This document shows positions 4,418 through 44,545 of a stretch of DNA of 64,000 nucleotides, one piece after another. Below the pieces are notes generated by a model. That model searched no databases, was not told the origin of the DNA, and saw nothing but the letters and a program-made list of their open reading frames with translations. Made by a program: the position numbers and the translations under genes. Source of the stretch: a virus; the IMG/VR virus record IMGVR_UViG_3300036944_001289, positions 1-64,000 of that record; one strand, given 5' to 3'. The stretch's first letter is position 1. Each line of letters opens with the position of its first letter.

Positions 4418-4999
4418 TTACATTCCTAGACTTATACCACAAGGTACATCATCTTCACCTGCCATACCTAAGTAATCTGACTTAGTTGTGCCGTCAGAAT
4501 ACTCTGTAACACGTGATCTACCACCCATAAAGTCTGAGTAATAAGTTCGGACCGGGGTCGGTTCTGTTATACTATCTTCATACATCTCATCATCGATAGA
4601 TCTACTCCAATTTCTTTTAAAGGTTCTGGGTTGTTCAGTTACTGAGCAATTGGTTTGTGATCGATGAAAAAGGCACTCACCATCTTCATTTCGTTTCATA
4701 TATCTTTCACCTTTGCGTACATACCTACCAGCAACTTTCCAGTCCATATATGTCTGAAACTCATTCTCAATCTTAGACTTTTTAGGCTTACTAGGTTGTA
4801 CCTTCTTACTCTCTCTCAATCTACCTGGAAGTATAACTCTAAGCTCGTTTGGGTTAAAGCAAACATTACACTTACAATTATATGGTCGTACATAGATATT
4901 ATTTGGAGCAATATCTACTACAACACCATCACGTACGTTCTCAGGAAACTCACTACGGGGTGCTTTTTGTGTATAAACTACTATATCTCCTATTTTCAT
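4418..4999 (-). CDS. Hypothetical protein, 193 aa
   Basis: No family is recognised with confidence. The first 60 residues resemble a small beta-barrel (KIGDIVVYTQ, then VRDGVVVDI) with a CKCNVC cysteine pair. The middle is Lys/Arg-rich and the C-terminal half is low in structure. A nucleic-acid-binding barrel is possible. It lies immediately upstream of the PEP-CTERM gene. Confidence 0.6.
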   Translation of the reverse strand: MKIGDIVVYTQKAPRSEFPENVRDGVVVDIAPNNIYVRPYNCKCNVCFNPNELRVILPGRLRESKKVQPSKPKKSKIENEFQTYMDWKVAGRYVRKGERYMKRNEDGECLFHRSQTNCSVTEQPRTFKRNWSRSIDDEMYEDSITEPTPVRTYYSDFMGGRSRVTEYSDGTTKSDYLGMAGEDDVPCGISLGM

Positions 5000-15138: not shown

Positions 15139-15451
15139 TGTTGTCATATTTTCATAATATGTGACAAAGAGCGTTTTTTAGCTCTGTTCTTTAAAATGCT
15201 TTGTGTTTTTAGCTTAATACCAGCACTCTACCACTAAGTTACCTGACCATATATACTAACCGGAAATTGGGGGTCAGGAGCTGATTTGAACAGCCGCATC
15301 TGGTTTAAATAGACACTATCTTTTAAAGAACCTTCTTAGTCGGGTTTTGAGCCTCGAGTGAATAGCCTTAGTTTGAACTTGAGCATGACCGGTTTAGACC
15401 CGGATTTCACTTTGAGCCTGGATACTCCCGAAGGAGCCACCCGAAATTGTT
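15139..15451 (-). ncRNA. Circularly permuted tRNA-like RNA with structured flanks
   Basis: On the minus strand a tRNA 3' half comes first: anticodon-stem strand ACCAG (15300-15304), T-arm (15279-15295), acceptor CCTGACC (15272-15278), then C and CCA. A 19-nt spacer follows, then the 5' half: acceptor GGTCAGG (15242-15248), D-arm ACTT-AGTGGTA-GAGT, and CTGGT (15219-15223). Acceptor (7 bp) and anticodon (5 bp) stems pair perfectly across the halves, and an 11-bp helix (15321-15331 with 15186-15196) extends the anticodon arm. The upstream 100 nt fold further (TCGGGT/ACCCGA, CTCC-TTCG-GGAG, CCGG/CCGG). Gene order matches two-piece tmRNA, but there is no G3-U70 pair and no tag frame. A true one-piece tmRNA lies at 41.1 kb. 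Confidence 0.75.
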
Positions 15452-23653: not shown

Positions 23654-25183
23654 TTAAGCTTTGATTACTTCATAACGGTCACTACAAACTGTATCGATCA
23701 TCATGTTATAAGGTGTTGTTGATTTGTTAGACAAAACACTCTTCAAGATTGAAGGTGAACAGCCTGATACTAAGCAAGTACCTTTATCGTCATATTTAAC
23801 CGGTACATCACTATAAGAGTTAACATTCCAATATACAATTTGAGGCACGTTGTAACCAGCTGCAGCGTACTTTGCCTTAATAGCAGCATGATTAGTTACT
23901 TCACCGCTATTAAGAGAGTCTGGCCCGGTAGCACAATCAAATTGCATATCTGAGATAATATATACATGGGATGGCATTTCAGATTGCGGCACTTTATTAC
24001 TTACGCCTTTATCAAGTATAAGATCAAATACAGATTGTAGATTAGTATTAGCAACCTCACGTCTACCAAGAACATCAGTTACATTTTGTATTAGACTTGT
24101 ACCTGTAATCTTTAAAAGTTTAGCATTATGGGAGAAGATCATAAAATGATCTTTGAATGCACCTTCGTTTCGTTCAGCAAAATAAATTGCAATTGATACA
24201 GCAACATCAATAGGTGCTATGTTATTACCAATATTAGCATTATAATAGTTACAAGAGTCCATTGAAGCTGAAACGTCAGCTACAACAATACCATTATGCT
24301 TATTACCGGCAAGATAATCTGGTAAGGCCTTCCATTGGGCCTCTAGAGTACGATCTACGGACCGTATATTACGAACTGAACGTACAATATCATATGGGTA
24401 CAATACTGAAGCGTTAATCTTTTCTTCACCTTTCTCGACATTAGTTAAAAACTTTGAGTAACGGTCACCGTCATGTTCTTTGAATGCTTTACGGTAAGTG
24501 CTTGCAGCCTTTGAAGGTACCGCAGGATAATTGATCTTGTCCCATTCACCTACACACATTTTGCGTTCCACTACATCGATCTTTTTACGAAGAGCTGATA
24601 GAAGCTTACGATATTGCTTTGGAGAGTAATCTAAAGTAGTACGTACTTTCTTTGCAAGACGTTTGGTTACAGAAGATGAAGCCTGTTCACTTGGTGCCCA
24701 TTTAGCACATAGTGAAGGATTCTTTTCAGATGCATCTTCAATAAGTTTATCAGCAACAAATTTAAGTGCGATTTTTTCAAGAGATGTACCTTCAAGCGTC
24801 TCAAGTACGTTGTCCCAACGAGTAAACTCAGGGATCTGGATCAAGAGGTTCTTAGCTACTTTCTCATCGTTTTGCGCAAGCCACTTAAAGCAGTTACGGA
24901 AGAGCTTACGCTCACCTTGACCTTCACGTACATCTACTAGATAGAAGAGAATCTTAAGAGCGATAGTCTTATCCTCATTATAAGCGGAGCGGAAAAGTGT
25001 AATAGATGCATCATCTGGTTGTGAACGCATTGAACCACCTTTACCAAAAAAATCGAGCAAAGAAGTACCAGTAGTCGAATGACTTACCGCACCATTATGC
25101 GTCTTGATATCTCCTGTAGTTAAAGCACTGATAAGTGCGTTTTGCTTAGGAGCTGTCTTTTTGATTGTTTTTTTAGTTGCCAT
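23654..25183 (-). CDS. Ro60/TROVE-VWA-like protein (DUF2828-type)
   Basis: The 509-residue protein has an alpha-helical N-terminal domain (about 50-290; FYLVDVREGQGERKLFRN, CAKWAPSEQ) like the HEAT-type TROVE ring. A von Willebrand A domain follows (about 295-480) with a MIDAS motif DVSASM near 305. This is the architecture of Ro60-like RNA-binding proteins and of the DUF2828 family found in large phages. Ro60 binds Y RNAs and misfolded RNAs. The partner could be one of the structured RNAs in this genome, which is inference. It has its own promoter-like motif and terminator. Confidence 0.8.
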   Translation of the reverse strand: MATKKTIKKTAPKQNALISALTTGDIKTHNGAVSHSTTGTSLLDFFGKGGSMRSQPDDASITLFRSAYNEDKTIALKILFYLVDVREGQGERKLFRNCFKWLAQNDEKVAKNLLIQIPEFTRWDNVLETLEGTSLEKIALKFVADKLIEDASEKNPSLCAKWAPSEQASSSVTKRLAKKVRTTLDYSPKQYRKLLSALRKKIDVVERKMCVGEWDKINYPAVPSKAASTYRKAFKEHDGDRYSKFLTNVEKGEEKINASVLYPYDIVRSVRNIRSVDRTLEAQWKALPDYLAGNKHNGIVVADVSASMDSCNYYNANIGNNIAPIDVAVSIAIYFAERNEGAFKDHFMIFSHNAKLLKITGTSLIQNVTDVLGRREVANTNLQSVFDLILDKGVSNKVPQSEMPSHVYIISDMQFDCATGPDSLNSGEVTNHAAIKAKYAAAGYNVPQIVYWNVNSYSDVPVKYDDKGTCLVSGCSPSILKSVLSNKSTTPYNMMIDTVCSDRYEVIKA

Positions 25184-25697: not shown

Positions 25698-26951
25698 TTA
25701 TTCGTAGTCAGATAACTTAAATATTTTAGACTCTTTTGGTATATAATGTCTATAATTATCAGATAAAAACCAGTACCAACGTTCTGGCTTCTCTGGTTTA
25801 ACTGTATCACCATAACCATCAGTGATTAAAAATACAGCTTTAGGGTATTTAATCTTTTCAGATTTAATAGTATTTTGTATCTTAGATTCTATAATACTAA
25901 AAGAAGTACCTCCACCGCCGTACACTTTATTCTGTTTGATATCAATCTCTACAACAGAGGTATCAAAGCAAAATAAACGAACATTAAACCTATTAGGATT
26001 TAAACTACGTGCAGCAGTAAAGAAGCGATCTTTTAACCCAATACAAGAACCAGATGTATCTAAAAAGAACCATACATCAATCTTATGATTGTCTTTAAAA
26101 TCATCTAAGATCCAATTCTCAGTAGGTAGTGATATATCACTAGATAGTAATTGAGAGTATTTAGGAGTTACTCTCTCCCATCGTTCTAACGTATTGATAG
26201 TATCTTTATTAAACTGACTTTCCCATTTCTTAATAACAGTCTCCCACTTGTACTTCTTTTTTCTTAACGAATTTACAGTAAGCCATGAACCTGTGCCTTT
26301 ACCTGCAGCAGAGTTCTTTAATTTTTGCGTATCAACAGTTGATGGTAGTTTATTGGTAAATGATTCATCTAGTTTATCAAGAATACCAGAAGCATCTATC
26401 AAATCTTTCATCTGTTGTTGCTGTTCGGGAGTTAATACTTTATGAGAGTCTATAGCAAAGTATTTGTTCTCTTTATCTTTAGGTAGTCTATTAAAATAGT
26501 ATTCTGTAGATTGATTAGGTAAGCAATTTTTATCATTTTTGAATACCGTATCCATCCAGCAACCTTTTTCACTTAGATCATTATTCAGTTCAATTCTCTT
26601 AAAACTAAATGAACTTACTAAAGTCTCGTTAATAACTACATCGGCAGCTATATTCATATTACTAAATTCTTGTGTACCTATATACTCAGAGAATCTATAA
26701 CCATGCTCTAATAGAATGTGTAAAATCTCATGACAAACTAAAAAGAGTTTAGTTTCTTCGTTTAGAGAATTCCAAAAATCTTCATTTATCATCAAGTTAA
26801 GATGATTGCCTTGATCATCAAAGGTAATCGCAGCAGTAGGTAAATCATCAAACTTACCTACTATGGGGTTACCTATATCCCAAAAAGCTCTAAAGAAATA
26901 GTGATAACTTTGGAGCTTTTGAGATATTTCTAACCGTTCTTGATAGTTCAT
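25698..26951 (-). CDS. Metallopeptidase-like VWA protein (DUF2201 type)
   Basis: The 417-residue protein has an N-terminal putative metallopeptidase domain with CHEILHILLEHG near residue 74 (HExxH-type zinc site) and a C-terminal VWA-like domain with a MIDAS motif LDTSGSC near 300 and FLITDGYGD near 374. This two-domain layout is the VWA-like partner of MoxR ATPases. Its start overlaps the MoxR stop by 4 bp. The pair probably forms a chaperone that loads metals or remodels a protein complex. Confidence 0.85.
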   Translation of the reverse strand: MNYQERLEISQKLQSYHYFFRAFWDIGNPIVGKFDDLPTAAITFDDQGNHLNLMINEDFWNSLNEETKLFLVCHEILHILLEHGYRFSEYIGTQEFSNMNIAADVVINETLVSSFSFKRIELNNDLSEKGCWMDTVFKNDKNCLPNQSTEYYFNRLPKDKENKYFAIDSHKVLTPEQQQQMKDLIDASGILDKLDESFTNKLPSTVDTQKLKNSAAGKGTGSWLTVNSLRKKKYKWETVIKKWESQFNKDTINTLERWERVTPKYSQLLSSDISLPTENWILDDFKDNHKIDVWFFLDTSGSCIGLKDRFFTAARSLNPNRFNVRLFCFDTSVVEIDIKQNKVYGGGGTSFSIIESKIQNTIKSEKIKYPKAVFLITDGYGDTVKPEKPERWYWFLSDNYRHYIPKESKIFKLSDYE

Positions 26952-28522
26952 TTTATATTAGAAGATAGAGCAACAAGCATACTAGCCTCGTTTACTTTCT
27001 TTTCAAAGTCTTCAGATATAATAACACTCGTTTCATCTGAATCACCCCGTAAATAGTTTATAAATTCGTTATAGTGTGTATCTCCAATCTTAGCCTTATT
27101 AATATGTATCTGGGATCTTATTTGCTTTTGCTCATCTGTATTTAGCTTTTGTTTAGCTAACATACAGCATGTACCAATTAGAGGTAGTAGTTTAGATTTA
27201 TATTTAGTAAATGTGGTGGTTTGAAACGATCCAACCATAGTACATGTAAAGTTAATTACATCATAATGATTGGGTACATTACTCCAAGACTTAACTAAGT
27301 CCTCCATTAGACTTATATAAACGTTAGTACCTAGACTTCTATATACAGTAAAATCTATCTTCTTAGTTTTGCCTGCTACTAATATAGCAGGATTAACTGA
27401 GAATAAATCGTTTGTTGTGACTGAAGGTGGTAAAGATGTAAGTAGGTTGTTGGTAGATTGAGTTGTAATCTCAAACTTACTAATATCGAGATTTTGCGCT
27501 TCTAGTAGCTTAAGAACCTTTAATAAATCATTATTCATAGTTGAATTTGATACCGCTGTAATTGCAGCAGTAAAGGTTACATCCTTCTTTAACCCCTGTA
27601 ATATAGCATAGTTCTTATAAATACCACTATTCTTTATATTAGCACAGATATACTCTTGCTTGAGGTATTTATGGAATTTCCAGAAACGAGGCTCATTCAA
27701 CTTATCCTTATACTTGAGATAGTTCTGATCACCGAGTAAGAATAGCTTCATTACATCTTCTGTAGGATTAGCAAATACACTATGTAACAATGCGTCTTCT
27801 TTCTTGGTAGCAAGTTTAGTTACAAGATCTTTTGTATTAGCTGATACCGGTAGAAGATCATATACATCTCCTCCTTTATTGAAAAACTCTCCAATATAAT
27901 CTAATCTACGAGGACTTAGAATCTTCTTAGCATCATCTGATTGATCTTTCCACCAGTTAATAAGAATATTACCATGATGATCACCATACTTATCTACAAA
28001 GTATTTCTTATCAGGAGCATTTGGAAGCTCAACAATAACATGAAAACGGTCGAGTTGTGCAGGATCAAGTTGCTCTACATCATAGTCTTGTGAGTTAGCA
28101 TCGCTATCAGACTTAGGTGGATTAATAGCAGCCCAAACCATCTTAAGCTTAGGAAACTTACGACCGTTAATTGACTTAAACTGTTGAAGCTCAAGAAGAG
28201 CGTTCTTTACAAGTTTATGAGTTCTATTATATTCGTCAATAAATAATGCTTCAATATCTTCATCAAGGTTAGAAGGTAGAATAAAATCCATCTTCTCTTG
28301 ACCTTCTGCACCTCTTACTTTTGGGATACCAATCAAATGAATCCAAGGATCAAGAGTAGAACCAGAAAAATAAGCAAACTTAAGATTATTGCGTTTAAAT
28401 GCATCTATAACGCGCTGTGTCTTGCCAACACCCTTCTCGCCAATAAGAAGAACATTTACACCAAGTTGAACCCATTGATCGAGTTTAGCAGGGGTAGCAT
28501 TTACTTTATTGAATTGTAGCAT
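26948..28522 (-). CDS. MoxR-type AAA+ ATPase
   Basis: The 524-residue protein has Walker A GEKGVGKT near residue 28, Walker B ALFIDEYNR near 92, sensor 1 WAAINPP near 131 and QLDPAQLDRF near 152, with the short N-terminus typical of MoxR. A 300-residue helical C-terminal extension is unusual for MoxR and may bind the partner. It is coupled to a metallopeptidase-VWA gene, the classical MoxR-VWA gene pair. Confidence 0.85.
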   Translation of the reverse strand: MLQFNKVNATPAKLDQWVQLGVNVLLIGEKGVGKTQRVIDAFKRNNLKFAYFSGSTLDPWIHLIGIPKVRGAEGQEKMDFILPSNLDEDIEALFIDEYNRTHKLVKNALLELQQFKSINGRKFPKLKMVWAAINPPKSDSDANSQDYDVEQLDPAQLDRFHVIVELPNAPDKKYFVDKYGDHHGNILINWWKDQSDDAKKILSPRRLDYIGEFFNKGGDVYDLLPVSANTKDLVTKLATKKEDALLHSVFANPTEDVMKLFLLGDQNYLKYKDKLNEPRFWKFHKYLKQEYICANIKNSGIYKNYAILQGLKKDVTFTAAITAVSNSTMNNDLLKVLKLLEAQNLDISKFEITTQSTNNLLTSLPPSVTTNDLFSVNPAILVAGKTKKIDFTVYRSLGTNVYISLMEDLVKSWSNVPNHYDVINFTCTMVGSFQTTTFTKYKSKLLPLIGTCCMLAKQKLNTDEQKQIRSQIHINKAKIGDTHYNEFINYLRGDSDETSVIISEDFEKKVNEASMLVALSSNIK

Positions 28523-38101: not shown

Positions 38102-38218
38102 ATAAATTGAGAACTTTTCAGTAGTATCGGTGATTAGACTTTCTGAAAAGAAAGAACAGACTTAAATCTAAAGATATACATCTTGGTTTCACCTACCATT
38201 GTTCTATTCTCAAATTTG

Positions 38219-38297
38219 TAGTTCGACCGACGGGATTCGCACCCGCGGGCAGACACTTTGCCAGCTTCTCTGCCTTACTAAACGGCGTCACGATCGA
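38219..38297 (-). tRNA. tRNA-like gene, identity undetermined
   Basis: Acceptor TCGATCG/CGGTCGA and T-arm GCGGG-TGCGAAT-CCCGT are good, but the D/anticodon region does not fold cleanly. A CTGGCAA loop would read GGC (Ala), yet its stem does not pair; GGCAGA/TCTGCC forms a longer arm instead. The 3' end reads ACTA rather than ACCA. Confidence 0.5.
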
Positions 38298-38329
38298 ACA
38301 TACTCGAAGATAATTAGTCTTCGAGAAAG

Positions 38330-41091: not shown

Positions 41092-41479
41092 TGGTGGAGG
41101 TGGCGGGAATTGAACCCGCGTGTTTAACCCAAACCTCACTATTATCTACAAGCTTAGTAGTATTTAATAACTATTTTAAGGTATACTACAACCTGTAGAT
41201 AGTGGTATACATTTATATACTAGAGAATCCCAATGTATAACTGACTCTCTAATCTCACTATATAACGAAATTAAATTTTAGTGAGAATCAAATCTAGTTT
41301 CGATCGCTGTTTATTAAGCAGCGAATGCAAGGGCCTCAACAGGAGCAGCGCTCTTGAAGAAGTTCTTGATGTAATTTACAATGTTGCCATTTGTAGTTTT
41401 GATACTAGTTATAGAGATAATATCAATCTCTGCTTGCAAATAGAGCTGTATCGAATTAAGTCGAATCCTGTACACCCCC
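41092..41479 (-). ncRNA. ssrA: One-piece tmRNA
   Basis: The acceptor stem GGGGGTG/CACCTCC contains the G3-U70 alanine pair, with A73 and an encoded CCA. The 5' part has ACAGGATTCGACTT, and the 3' part the T-arm CGCGGG-TTCAATT-CCCGC. A tag frame (about 41317-41397) ends ...VEALAFAA followed by tandem TAA TAA. The tag is about 27 residues, long compared with the usual 8-35, and ends AFAA rather than ALAA. The element would rescue stalled ribosomes and mark products for degradation. It sits inside the tRNA array. Confidence 0.93.
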
Positions 41480-42179: not shown

Positions 42180-42326
42180 ATATCTAATGTTCTACCATGT
42201 TGAACTATCCTCCTTGTTCTATTGGGTAAGAGAGGAGCGGACCTTGAACCCGCATCTTTAGATAAAGAGACTGGGTCTGCATAACAGACCCGAAAGCTCA
42301 CTGTACGCTTGGTACATGAACAAAAA
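42180..42326 (-). ncRNA. Permuted tRNA-like locus (third copy), degenerate
   Basis: On the minus strand the 3' half comes first: TCTAA (42258-42262), T-arm GCGGG-TTCAAGG-TCCGC (42237-42253), acceptor TCCTCTC (42230-42236). The 5' half follows: AGGAGGA (42208-42214), TA, D-arm GTTC-AACATGGTA-GAAC and TTAGA (42183-42187). TTAGA/TCTAA pair perfectly, but the acceptor has one mismatch and no clean CCA. A strong hairpin GGGTCTG/CAGACCC (42273-42291) lies upstream. It may be a decaying copy, or the 3' part could belong to a damaged class II tRNA. Confidence 0.5.
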
Positions 42327-42502: not shown

Positions 42503-42640
42503 TAAGTATATTTTTTGCGTTTACTGTGCTACCGTTACACTACTCTCCAATAAAGTATAAATTGGGTGGAGAGGTGGGAATTGAACCCACACTAGCATCT
42601 GTATATGATGATTGCGTTTTATTTTTGCTGTATATACTTA
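42503..42640 (-). ncRNA. Permuted tRNA-like RNA enclosed by the CAGCAA element
   Basis: Closed by TAAGTATAT (42632-42640 on the minus strand) and ATATACTTA (42503-42511). The 3' tRNA half comes first: T-arm GTGGG-TTCAATT-CCCAC (42574-42590), acceptor CTCTCCA, C73, CCA (ends 42563). A 13-nt spacer precedes the 5' half: TGGAGAG (42543-42549), TA, D-arm GTGT-AACGGTA-GCAC (42526-42540). The acceptor pairs over all 7 bp. An anticodon-arm-like CATC-ATATACA-GATG precedes the T-arm. Just inside the closing stem is CAGCAA, shared with three small RNAs in the array. Confidence 0.65.
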
Positions 42641-42902: not shown

Positions 42903-42964
42903 AAAGTCCGTTTTTAGCTTGTATTGATTAATATTCAATTGCTTTTGATTGCTGTGCGGACTTT
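42903..42964 (-). ncRNA. Small structured RNA, CAGCAA family copy 1
   Basis: Closed by AAAGTCCG/CGGACTTT, with CAGCAA two bases inside the 5' strand (GCACAGCAAT). 62 nt, no tRNA features. Confidence 0.6.
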
Positions 42965-42970
42965 TATTAC

Positions 42971-43024
42971 TAAGTTCAGCTTTTTGTTGTATTCAATGAC
43001 ATTTAGTATTGCTGGATGAACTTA
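42971..43024 (-). ncRNA. Small structured RNA, CAGCAA family copy 2
   Basis: Closed by TAAGTTCA/TGAACTTA, with CAGCAA two bases inside. 54 nt, directly next to copy 1. Confidence 0.6.
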
Positions 43025-43027
43025 AAT

Positions 43028-43099
43028 TGGGTGCAGCGCTGGTACTCGAAACCAGAGAAGGTAGCTTATGAGACTCCTTGGGCAACCTGCCTCACTGCA
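43028..43099 (-). tRNA. tRNA-Met-type (CAT) with reduced D-arm
   Basis: Loop CTCATAA, T-arm CTGGT-TTCGAGT-ACCAG, acceptor TGCAGTG/CGCTGCA, C73, CCA. The D-arm is short. CAT could be Met or, if C34 is modified, Ile. Confidence 0.75.
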
Positions 43100-43105
43100 A
43101 TAAAT

Positions 43106-43158
43106 TGGCGATGTAACTAATCTGAAATATTGACTTGTAAGCGTTCTTACCGTTACAT
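43106..43158 (-). ncRNA. Mini-helix RNA ending in CCA
   Basis: ATGTAAC/GTTACAT closing stem, inner hairpin GTAAG-AACG-CTTAC and a 3' CGCCA. Too short for a tRNA: 53 nt and no T-arm. Confidence 0.4.
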
Positions 43159-43167
43159 TATTAAATA

Positions 43168-43683: not shown

Positions 43684-43737
43684 TAAGTCCATTTATTTAC
43701 CTTATTGTAGTATTTTAATGGTTGCTGTCTGGACTTA
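43684..43737 (-). ncRNA. Small structured RNA, CAGCAA family copy 3
   Basis: Closed by TAAGTCCA/TGGACTTA, with CAGCAA two bases inside. 54 nt, between tRNA-Asp and the HNH gene. Confidence 0.6.
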
Positions 43738-43741
43738 AAAA

Positions 43742-44545
43742 TTATTTGATAGAGAAGTATTTTTTCCATTGTTTATATCTTGGAGATCCACCTTCTCGTT
43801 TATTAGCACCTTTATAAAATTGAGATAGTGAATGGCAGTTTGGACACAACAACTCTAAATTATCTGGAATGTTATTAATGCAATTACCATCTTTATGTTC
43901 TAACTCGATCGGTACTTTACCTGAAAAAGGATTTACTTCGGACCAACCACATTTCATACACCTTGGTCCAAATTTGCGAATTAAGTATCTTCTATATATT
44001 GTGTTATTTGTTTCAATATTTTGAGAAATAACCTTTCCTTCGATTAATAGTGGTTCTAATTCTTTTTCACGCTGGTTTTTTCTGTGTTCAGAAGAGCATA
44101 TTTGTTCACAAAATATTGACGTTTTTGCTACCGGTAAGAAGTCTCGTTCACAATTTAAACACTTTTTGTATTCTTTATATCTTAATGCAGGACCTCTTTT
44201 AAGGAAGCGATTATTGCTAATAAAATTTTCTGTATTTTTATGAACTTTGTTACAAACTCTTGTCTTGTTGATTGTTGTAGCAGCACAACTATTAGAGCAA
44301 AATTTATTTTCGTAACTAAAAAAGGAAATGTTACATGTCAGGCATACTTTTGTATTTTCTTCTATTATTTTTTGCTTTTCTTTTTCTTTACAAGAAGGAC
44401 AATCAAATTTATCTACGTTATGTTTTATATTATGCTTAATATAAATTTTAAGTCTTTTGGTTTCTGTTCCACAATCTTTACACCAGCAAGTAACTGAATC
44501 TTTATTTGTCGCGTTATCGAATTCTTCTTGGTTGAATTTATACAT
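43742..44545 (-). CDS. HNH endonuclease with zinc fingers
   Basis: The 267-residue protein has several CxxC pairs in its N-terminal 170 residues (CWCKDC, CPSCKE, CLTC, CLNC, resembling short zinc ribbons). Its C-terminal HNH nuclease has CMKCG, IELEHKDGN, N-PDNLELLCPNCH. This is the make-up of free-standing HNH homing endonucleases. It interrupts the tRNA array between tRNA-Asp and tRNA-Thr, consistent with a mobile insertion, and carries a late-type box 5 nt before its ATG. Confidence 0.88.
   Translation of the reverse strand: MYKFNQEEFDNATNKDSVTCWCKDCGTETKRLKIYIKHNIKHNVDKFDCPSCKEKEKQKIIEENTKVCLTCNISFFSYENKFCSNSCAATTINKTRVCNKVHKNTENFISNNRFLKRGPALRYKEYKKCLNCERDFLPVAKTSIFCEQICSSEHRKNQREKELEPLLIEGKVISQNIETNNTIYRRYLIRKFGPRCMKCGWSEVNPFSGKVPIELEHKDGNCINNIPDNLELLCPNCHSLSQFYKGANKREGGSPRYKQWKKYFSIK

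Follow-up and report, generated by a model that had tools for sequence, protein, structure and literature searches.

The window analyzed here is a 64,000-nucleotide stretch from the 209 kb genome of a tailed phage. It includes an array of >20 tRNAs and a tmRNA, every one of which is on the minus strand, and the array adjoins a capsid-region gene whose nearest relatives are cyanophage virion proteins. Within this array, sequence inspection, folding, and a covariance model all delimit an RNA element on the minus strand at 42503–42640 (E4), which consists of a stem-CAGCAA handle and a permuted tRNA-like module. The initial annotation had described this element as a 3' half, CCA, a 13-nt spacer, and a 5' half in that order, and each of these parts can be seen in the minus-strand sequence. 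The element is closed by a 9-bp stem (TAAGTATAT/ATATACTTA) in which the 5' arm (42640–42632), a candidate Ro60-binding stem, pairs with the 3' arm (42511–42503), and the inner edge of the stem carries CAGCAA (42625–42630, read A-CAGCAA), as had also been reported. Enclosed by this stem are a T-arm (GTGGG-TTCAATT-CCCAC, 42574–42590), an acceptor hairpin (42543–42573), and a D-arm (GTGT-AACGGTA-GCAC, 42526–42540). The acceptor strands CTCTCCA (42573–42567) and TGGAGAG (42549–42543) form 7 Watson-Crick pairs and are separated by C73 plus CCA (42566–42563) followed by the 13-nt spacer (42562–42550), while the D-arm forms 4 Watson-Crick pairs. The annotated 7-bp acceptor and perfect D-arm are accordingly both real, and folding agrees with them. 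Of the features relevant to modification by the tRNA enzymes TruB and DusA, the TTCAA of the T-loop and the GG of the D-loop are both present in the sequence. The thermodynamic centroid contains all four helices simultaneously, with pair probabilities of 0.65–1.0 for the closing stem, 0.85–0.99 for the acceptor, 0.65–0.98 for the T-arm, and ~0.67 for the D-arm; the MFE z-score is modest (-2.2). Joining the two halves of E4 creates no anticodon stem or loop, and no 5-bp anticodon stem was found in either the sequence or the fold.

A permuted-core scan (T-arm plus acceptor hairpin plus D-arm) of the entire phage genome (209,282 bases) recovered the E4 T-arm and D-arm and ranked the 42.5 kb locus highest (18.5), followed by loci at 15.2 kb (18.0) and 42.2 kb (17.0), while no core in ten shuffled sequences scored above 15.5. 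The combination of a CAGCAA stem with a permuted core occurs once in the phage genome and in none of 40 shuffled genomes. We also searched the whole phage genome with a covariance model (R1) built from 29 relatives with the window left out, in which only the pairs of the closing stem and T-arm are modeled. This model matched E4 end to end, at exactly 42503–42640 (54.2 bits, E 3.2e-8), and its runner-up is a pair of ordinary tRNAs (E 0.015). Ordinary tRNA T-arms were the sole matches in a blastn search of E4 against phages, and a viral scan for CAGCAA, a T-arm, and CCCAATT yielded 29 stretches, none of which had an E4-like structure.

The other two high-scoring permuted RNAs are also on the minus strand and both lack CAGCAA. 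They are YrlA-like, scoring 19.3 bits (E 0.08) at 15.2 kb and 28.8 bits (E 3.6e-4 with 551 bases searched, the best YrlA match of the phage) at 42.2 kb against a gathering cutoff of 69 bits for the Rfam YrlA model (RF02553), while E4 itself has no match to this model at E<=10. The 15.2 kb RNA (15186–15331) has an 11-bp closing stem (15321–15331/15186–15196) around a permuted core at 15225–15295. Its previously noted 7-bp acceptor, C73, and CCCAATTT were confirmed along with the closing stem, and CAGCAA is absent there. This RNA keeps a 5-bp anticodon-stem remnant (ACCAG/CTGGT) and is distant from the array, being flanked by a phosphoribosyltransferase-like gene and a DUF7873 gene. The 42.2 kb RNA (42181–42264, core 42189–42253) sits between tRNA-Arg and tRNA-Asn and has TACCCAATAG at its junction. 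A related viral contig has a stronger YrlA match (38.3 bits) adjoining a tRNA. CCCA is common to all three permuted RNAs of the phage and to L174, a relative with the same handle. The CCCAATTT junction had been presented as a shared feature of E4 and the 15.2 kb copy, and it does occur in both, but it is not peculiar to them, as an fMet-like tRNA of the array also has CCCAATTT. This tRNA (~43018–43096, minus strand, CAT anticodon) was overlooked by ARAGORN and ends in C73 plus CCA plus ATTT, as in the permuted RNAs.

In total, the phage has five elements with the arrangement stem-CAGCAA-insert-stem, four of which are in the tRNA array, with the fifth preceding the start codon of a Ro60-like gene. 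Besides E4, those in the array are three short minus-strand elements from the CAGCAA stem search: E3 (42903–42964), which has a weak covariance model match (E 0.13) and an insert resembling an anticodon arm (5 bp/7 nt, ATTGA-ATATTAA-TCAAT), E2 (42971–43024), and E1 (43684–43737), which also has a weak covariance model match (E 0.29). As the initial CAGCAA-only stem search barely exceeded shuffles, it should be noted that the family signal described below arose from the stem consensus, strand bias, and position, not from that search.

A predicted Ro60-type ring protein is encoded by the phage

The gene at 23654–25183 (minus strand) encodes a 509-aa protein, the proposed partner of E4, which contains PF11443 (DUF2828) and PF25043 (DUF7788) and belongs to PHROG 850, annotated as 'RNA-binding protein'. 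A search of the phage genome for the TROVE domain (PF05731) was negative at E<=10, and a profile sequence search of the PDB found no relative of the protein; its likeness to Ro60 was revealed by structure comparison alone. Similarly, a search from the single protein sequence returned no relatives, whereas an alignment-based search succeeded. The AF2 model of the protein has a pLDDT of 88 with a 56-sequence alignment and 42 without an alignment. Its predicted fold shows a HEAT-like ring plus a vWA domain, and Ro autoantigen-RNA complexes are the structures that it matches best (1yvp, Z 23.3, 418 residues, rmsd 4.1), with a Foldseek E of 2e-8 to the Ro autoantigen. Further matches include Deinococcus Rsr (2nvo) and the Ro60 of Thermus phage phiLo (9l5y). 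The MIDAS motif DxSxS (D303, S305, and S307) is invariant in the 56 sequences. From the modeled structure, the 23654–25183 product is predicted to be a Ro60-type ring protein, one that shares the Ro fold and DxSxS with the TROVE proteins Ro60 and Rsr, but differs from them in having no PF05731 match and ~11% identity to the vertebrate structures.

Ro60-like phage proteins are themselves already known. Mycobacteriophage homologues carry the annotation 'Ro-like RNA binding protein', the structural resemblance of mycobacteriophage proteins to RO60 has been published (PMC12363180), and some jumbo phages were noted to have ROT/TROVE proteins in a 2021 survey (PMC7824862). A MoxR-type ATPase and vWA-metallopeptidase pair (25698–28522, minus strand) immediately precedes the Ro60-like gene, and such a pair has been reported for group 2.2 jumbo phages (PMC7824862).

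CAGCAA elements form a family next to Ro60-like genes

In 40 of 80 viral DUF2828 loci, the 400 nt preceding the matched region contain a CAGCAA stem of 7 bp or more, vs. ~1.4 for permuted hexamers, a control mean to which overlapping shifts of CAGCAA contribute. When CAGCA elements were counted across these viral loci, 157 were in the sense orientation and 7 were antisense, with permuted motifs giving ~5 per strand. The 80 cellular DUF2828 loci, which are mostly from Clostridia and other gut bacteria and may include prophages, yielded 134 sense elements and a single antisense element (control mean 5.9). Expressed per 100 kb, the element rate was 11.6 in the viral DUF2828 loci (controls 0.67) and 1.96 in comparison viral loci (controls 0.72), where DUF2828 was present in 0 of 39 contigs tested. 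These numbers are undercounts because perfect stems were required, and they come from loci that are partly kin rather than independent, such that the permuted-motif controls address composition and not shared ancestry. Approximately half of the viral elements (76 of 157) have a tRNA gene within 300 nt, with 33 expected. Stem-CAGCAA RNAs are thus a widespread family in phages and bacteria, and the covariance model match makes E4 a member. The enclosure of E4 in a conserved RNA element, as originally proposed, is likewise evident from the recurrence of stem-CAGCAA hundreds of times beside Ro60-like genes. One contig of a Lokiarchaeota MAG (SDNL01000006.1) also combines a DUF2828 gene with a CAGCAA element that encloses a permuted tRNA core (4817–4936); although binned as archaeal, it could be a misbinned viral contig.

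Searches of Rfam and the open-access literature yielded no account of the CAGCAA handle, the pairing of DUF2828 proteins with Y RNAs, the anticodon-loop inserts, or the leader element described below, and the stem-CAGCAA RNA family is apparently new to description. Phages carrying YrlA are already on record (PMC7765460).

The same handle carries different parts of tRNA

Permuted cores were found within the element in the Bacillus phages PJN02 and BcoS-136 (two each), the Enterococcus phage EFDG1, the Sinorhizobium phage phiN3, and many uncultured viruses. In 12 elements selected blind to acceptor pairing, 63 Watson-Crick and 8 G-U pairs were present among 84 acceptor pairs, compared to 29.6 with partners shuffled. 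The acceptor thus shows compensatory changes of the kind that the initial annotation had named as a check. A script was used to count covariation in the acceptor, since MAFFT misplaces the acceptor loop (alignment A3). Most relatives close their acceptor hairpin on just 3–10 nt and have no CCA.

Other inserts are not permuted. Hairpins of 5 bp with a 7-nt U33/R37 loop occur in 38 of 133 viral inserts (3.9 in shuffled sequences) and 58 of 129 cellular inserts (3.3 in shuffled sequences), a count that is partly composed of T-arms, and a loop length of 7 is enriched by itself (viral, 72 vs. 20 shuffled; cellular, 83 vs. 23). Many of these hairpins are recognizable anticodon arms, including CATGA-CTTTTAA-TCATG (Lys), TTTGA-CTGTTAA-TCAAA (Asn), and TCAGA-CTGCTAA-TCTGA (Ser). 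Eleven inserts have D, anticodon, and T arms in their normal order without a complete acceptor stem. Bacterial elements having a tRNA insert in which the putative Ro60 stem replaces the acceptor were seen at L302:3203, L304:4669, L316:4507, L324:4648, L329:4443, L337:4838, L351:4537, and L358:4635, and their anticodons are varied. Many short CAGCAA elements have no recognizable tRNA part. Across these insert classes, the handle is the constant feature of the family and the displayed tRNA part the variable one.

An element at the Ro60 start codon

The fifth element of the phage (25190–25219, minus strand) is located in the 5' UTR of the Ro60-like gene and ends 6 nt before its ATG, where it is a proposed autoregulatory site. 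It has a stem of just 6 bp and a weak predicted fold. The arrangement recurs in other phages: 34 of the 80 viral loci have an element whose end is no more than 40 nt from the in-frame Ro ATG (controls mean 0.62, maximum 4). In many loci, the element stem abuts a GGAG Shine-Dalgarno (...ATCAACTT-GGAG...ATG), and in the Vibrio phages KVP40 and nt-1, the start codon is inside the 3' arm (AATGTC) with the Shine-Dalgarno inside the loop. Upstream elements are also found in phages DLP_6, B23, phiN3, F370, P100, EFDG1, PJN02, and BcoS-136. For 6 of 16 named phages encoding the protein, the 200 nt preceding the gene are free of such elements, although S-CoN_Ph6, one of these 6, carries two just downstream of the gene. 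In autogenous operators, such as those of ribosomal proteins and T4 RegA/gp32, the leader resembles the RNA ligand of the protein beside the ribosome site. The ro60 leader similarly mimics the proposed RNA ligand of its protein next to the ribosome site, and the simplest inference from this layout is that ro60 would be under autogenous control via the leader element. Ro60 would bind its own mRNA leader once the Y RNAs are saturated, which would block its translation. An operator of this kind was not found for any Ro60 in searchable papers.

E4 as a probable Y-type RNA for the phage Ro60

YrlA is a bacterial counterpart against which E4 can be compared: a long stem formed by both RNA ends holds the Ro60-type protein, a separate domain resembles tRNA in its D, T, and acceptor arms, and the RNA links Rsr to a ring-shaped exonuclease as a tether (PMC8394870). 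E4 has the same permuted T-arm, acceptor hairpin, and D-arm within an end-to-end closing stem, its own genome encodes a protein with a Ro60-type fold match, and it lacks an anticodon arm, the position that the Ro60 stem fills in a Y RNA. E4 differs in its stem motif (CAGCAA vs. AUGC/AAAACUUG of the Rfam consensus), in its retention of CCA, in belonging to a family that also bears anticodon stem-loops and acceptor-less tRNAs, and in having a proposed partner that is DUF2828-type and by sequence not TROVE-type. Because E4 gives no match to RF02553 and the other two RNAs score below its cutoff, we describe E4 as working like YrlA rather than assigning it to that family. Overall, we consider E4 to be most probably a Y-type RNA that partners the phage Ro60-like protein and acts in a YrlA-like manner (probability of roughly 0.8). 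The closing stem and its inner CAGCAA would serve as a handle bound by the phage's own Ro60-like ring, while the permuted T-arm/acceptor/D-arm module would be displayed on the Ro60 particle as an elbow-shaped tRNA mimic. The insert would then be the effector end, engaging some tRNA-recognizing enzyme by analogy with the exonuclease tethering of YrlA. Several observations count against this reading, namely that E4 has no YrlA match, that 6 of 16 named phages have no element ahead of the gene, that the 15.2 kb and 42.2 kb permuted RNAs lack CAGCAA, that the phage keeps a CCA that would be superfluous for a pure decoy, that the leader stem of the phage is short and folds weakly, that many short elements hold no recognizable tRNA part, and that T-arms make up part of the anticodon-type hairpin count.

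The first alternative to weigh is the one suggested by the name under which E4 was originally annotated. Circularly permuted tRNA genes occur in red algae and some archaea, and E4 is like them in having its 3' half upstream of its 5' half with CCA and a spacer between. The topology of a permuted tRNA stands, but the two-piece or re-ligated tRNA gene that the name implied is not supported. If E4 were a genuine gene of this type, with its precursor cut and re-ligated into a CCA-bearing tRNA, the 7-bp acceptor, C73, encoded CCA, and T- and D-arms would all be accounted for, as would an RNA ligase domain (PF09414) encoded at 207773–208297 of the phage. However, the joined halves provide no anticodon stem or anticodon, there is no sign of splicing, and most relatives lack CCA and have the acceptor on short loops. 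The handle is also conserved independently of the insert and bears non-permuted inserts, and together these points make such a gene very improbable. A search of the phage for RtcB did not find it. It is also conceivable, albeit unlikely, that E4 is a Y RNA that becomes nicked and chargeable, with RNase P cleaving the 5' end of the acceptor, after which trimming would bare the CCA for possible aminoacylation. CCCA is kept in all three phage permuted RNAs and L174, and E4 shares its permuted tRNA-like halves and encoded CCA with the permuted two-piece tmRNA (RF04321). Yet the match to this tmRNA is weak, partial, and far under the cutoff (17.5 vs. 47 bits), the phage has a separate one-piece tmRNA, CCA is missing from most relatives, and no amino-acid identity set was recognized in E4.

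A different possibility is that the CAGCAA stem is the site of some other protein or a processing signal of tRNA transcripts and that the Ro60-like gene merely shares the operon. While the excess of elements within 300 nt of tRNA genes (76 of 157) would fit a role in tRNA transcripts, we regard this as quite unlikely given the enrichment right at the Ro start codon (34 of 80), the near-background rate in loci without the gene, and the phages KVP40 and nt-1, in which no annotated tRNA array adjoins the gene. E4 is least probably the debris of a tandem tRNA duplication in which the outer halves decayed, leaving a 3' half beside a 5' half. The dense tRNA array does contain other degenerate tRNA-like RNAs, and such a module could plausibly have originated by tandem duplication. 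Even so, decay is difficult to reconcile with intact pairing in all arms, a conserved closing stem with CAGCAA, a covariance model match of E 3e-8, and recurrence in unrelated phages with compensatory acceptor changes.

Returning to the Y-type RNA reading, its function may be either that of a decoy or a tether. Most probably, the Ro60-Y particles would present tRNA parts in one of these two roles, whether elbows, anticodon stem-loops, or tRNAs lacking the acceptor, with candidate targets being tRNA-cleaving nucleases or an RNA-decay/repair partner. A tether would serve decay or repair, and the phage has the RNA ligase domain noted above. Since phages with large tRNA arrays face tRNA-cleaving nucleases, a decoy role would account for the variety of anticodon loops. 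As a tentative extension, to which we would assign somewhat less than even odds, phages and bacteria with DUF2828-Ro60 may hold modular libraries of decoys or sensors against tRNA-cleaving nucleases in phage-host conflict, built from permuted elbows, anticodon stem-loops for many codons, and tRNAs bearing the Ro60 stem instead of an acceptor stem, with Ro60 gauging its own free level via the handle copy at its start codon. The role of Ro60 and Y RNAs in bacteria and phages is a long-standing question. What had been a curious 'permuted tRNA' becomes a large RNA family open to testing, with the elements of the tractable laboratory phages KVP40, EFDG1, PJN02, and P100 giving exact sequences for this purpose. 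DUF2828 proteins, which are found in hundreds of sequenced phages, gain a likely RNA ligand, a route is proposed for Ro60 self-regulation, and the display of many tRNA parts suggests a reason for the resemblance between Y RNAs and tRNAs.

Additional RNAs and genes of the phage

The one-piece tmRNA (RF00023, 133.9 bits) is located in the tRNA array at 41092–41479 (minus strand). Degenerate tRNA-like RNAs with AATTTATG-type spacers are interspersed among the intact tRNAs at 38120–38320 and 43105–43165 (minus strand), and these may be additional mimics or decayed tRNAs. Inside the array beside E1 is an HNH-like endonuclease gene (43742–44545, minus strand) with a weak match to an IscB model (E 0.0016), and a Group I intron (RF00028, 96.6 bits) is found at another phage location (L004:12737–12941, minus strand).
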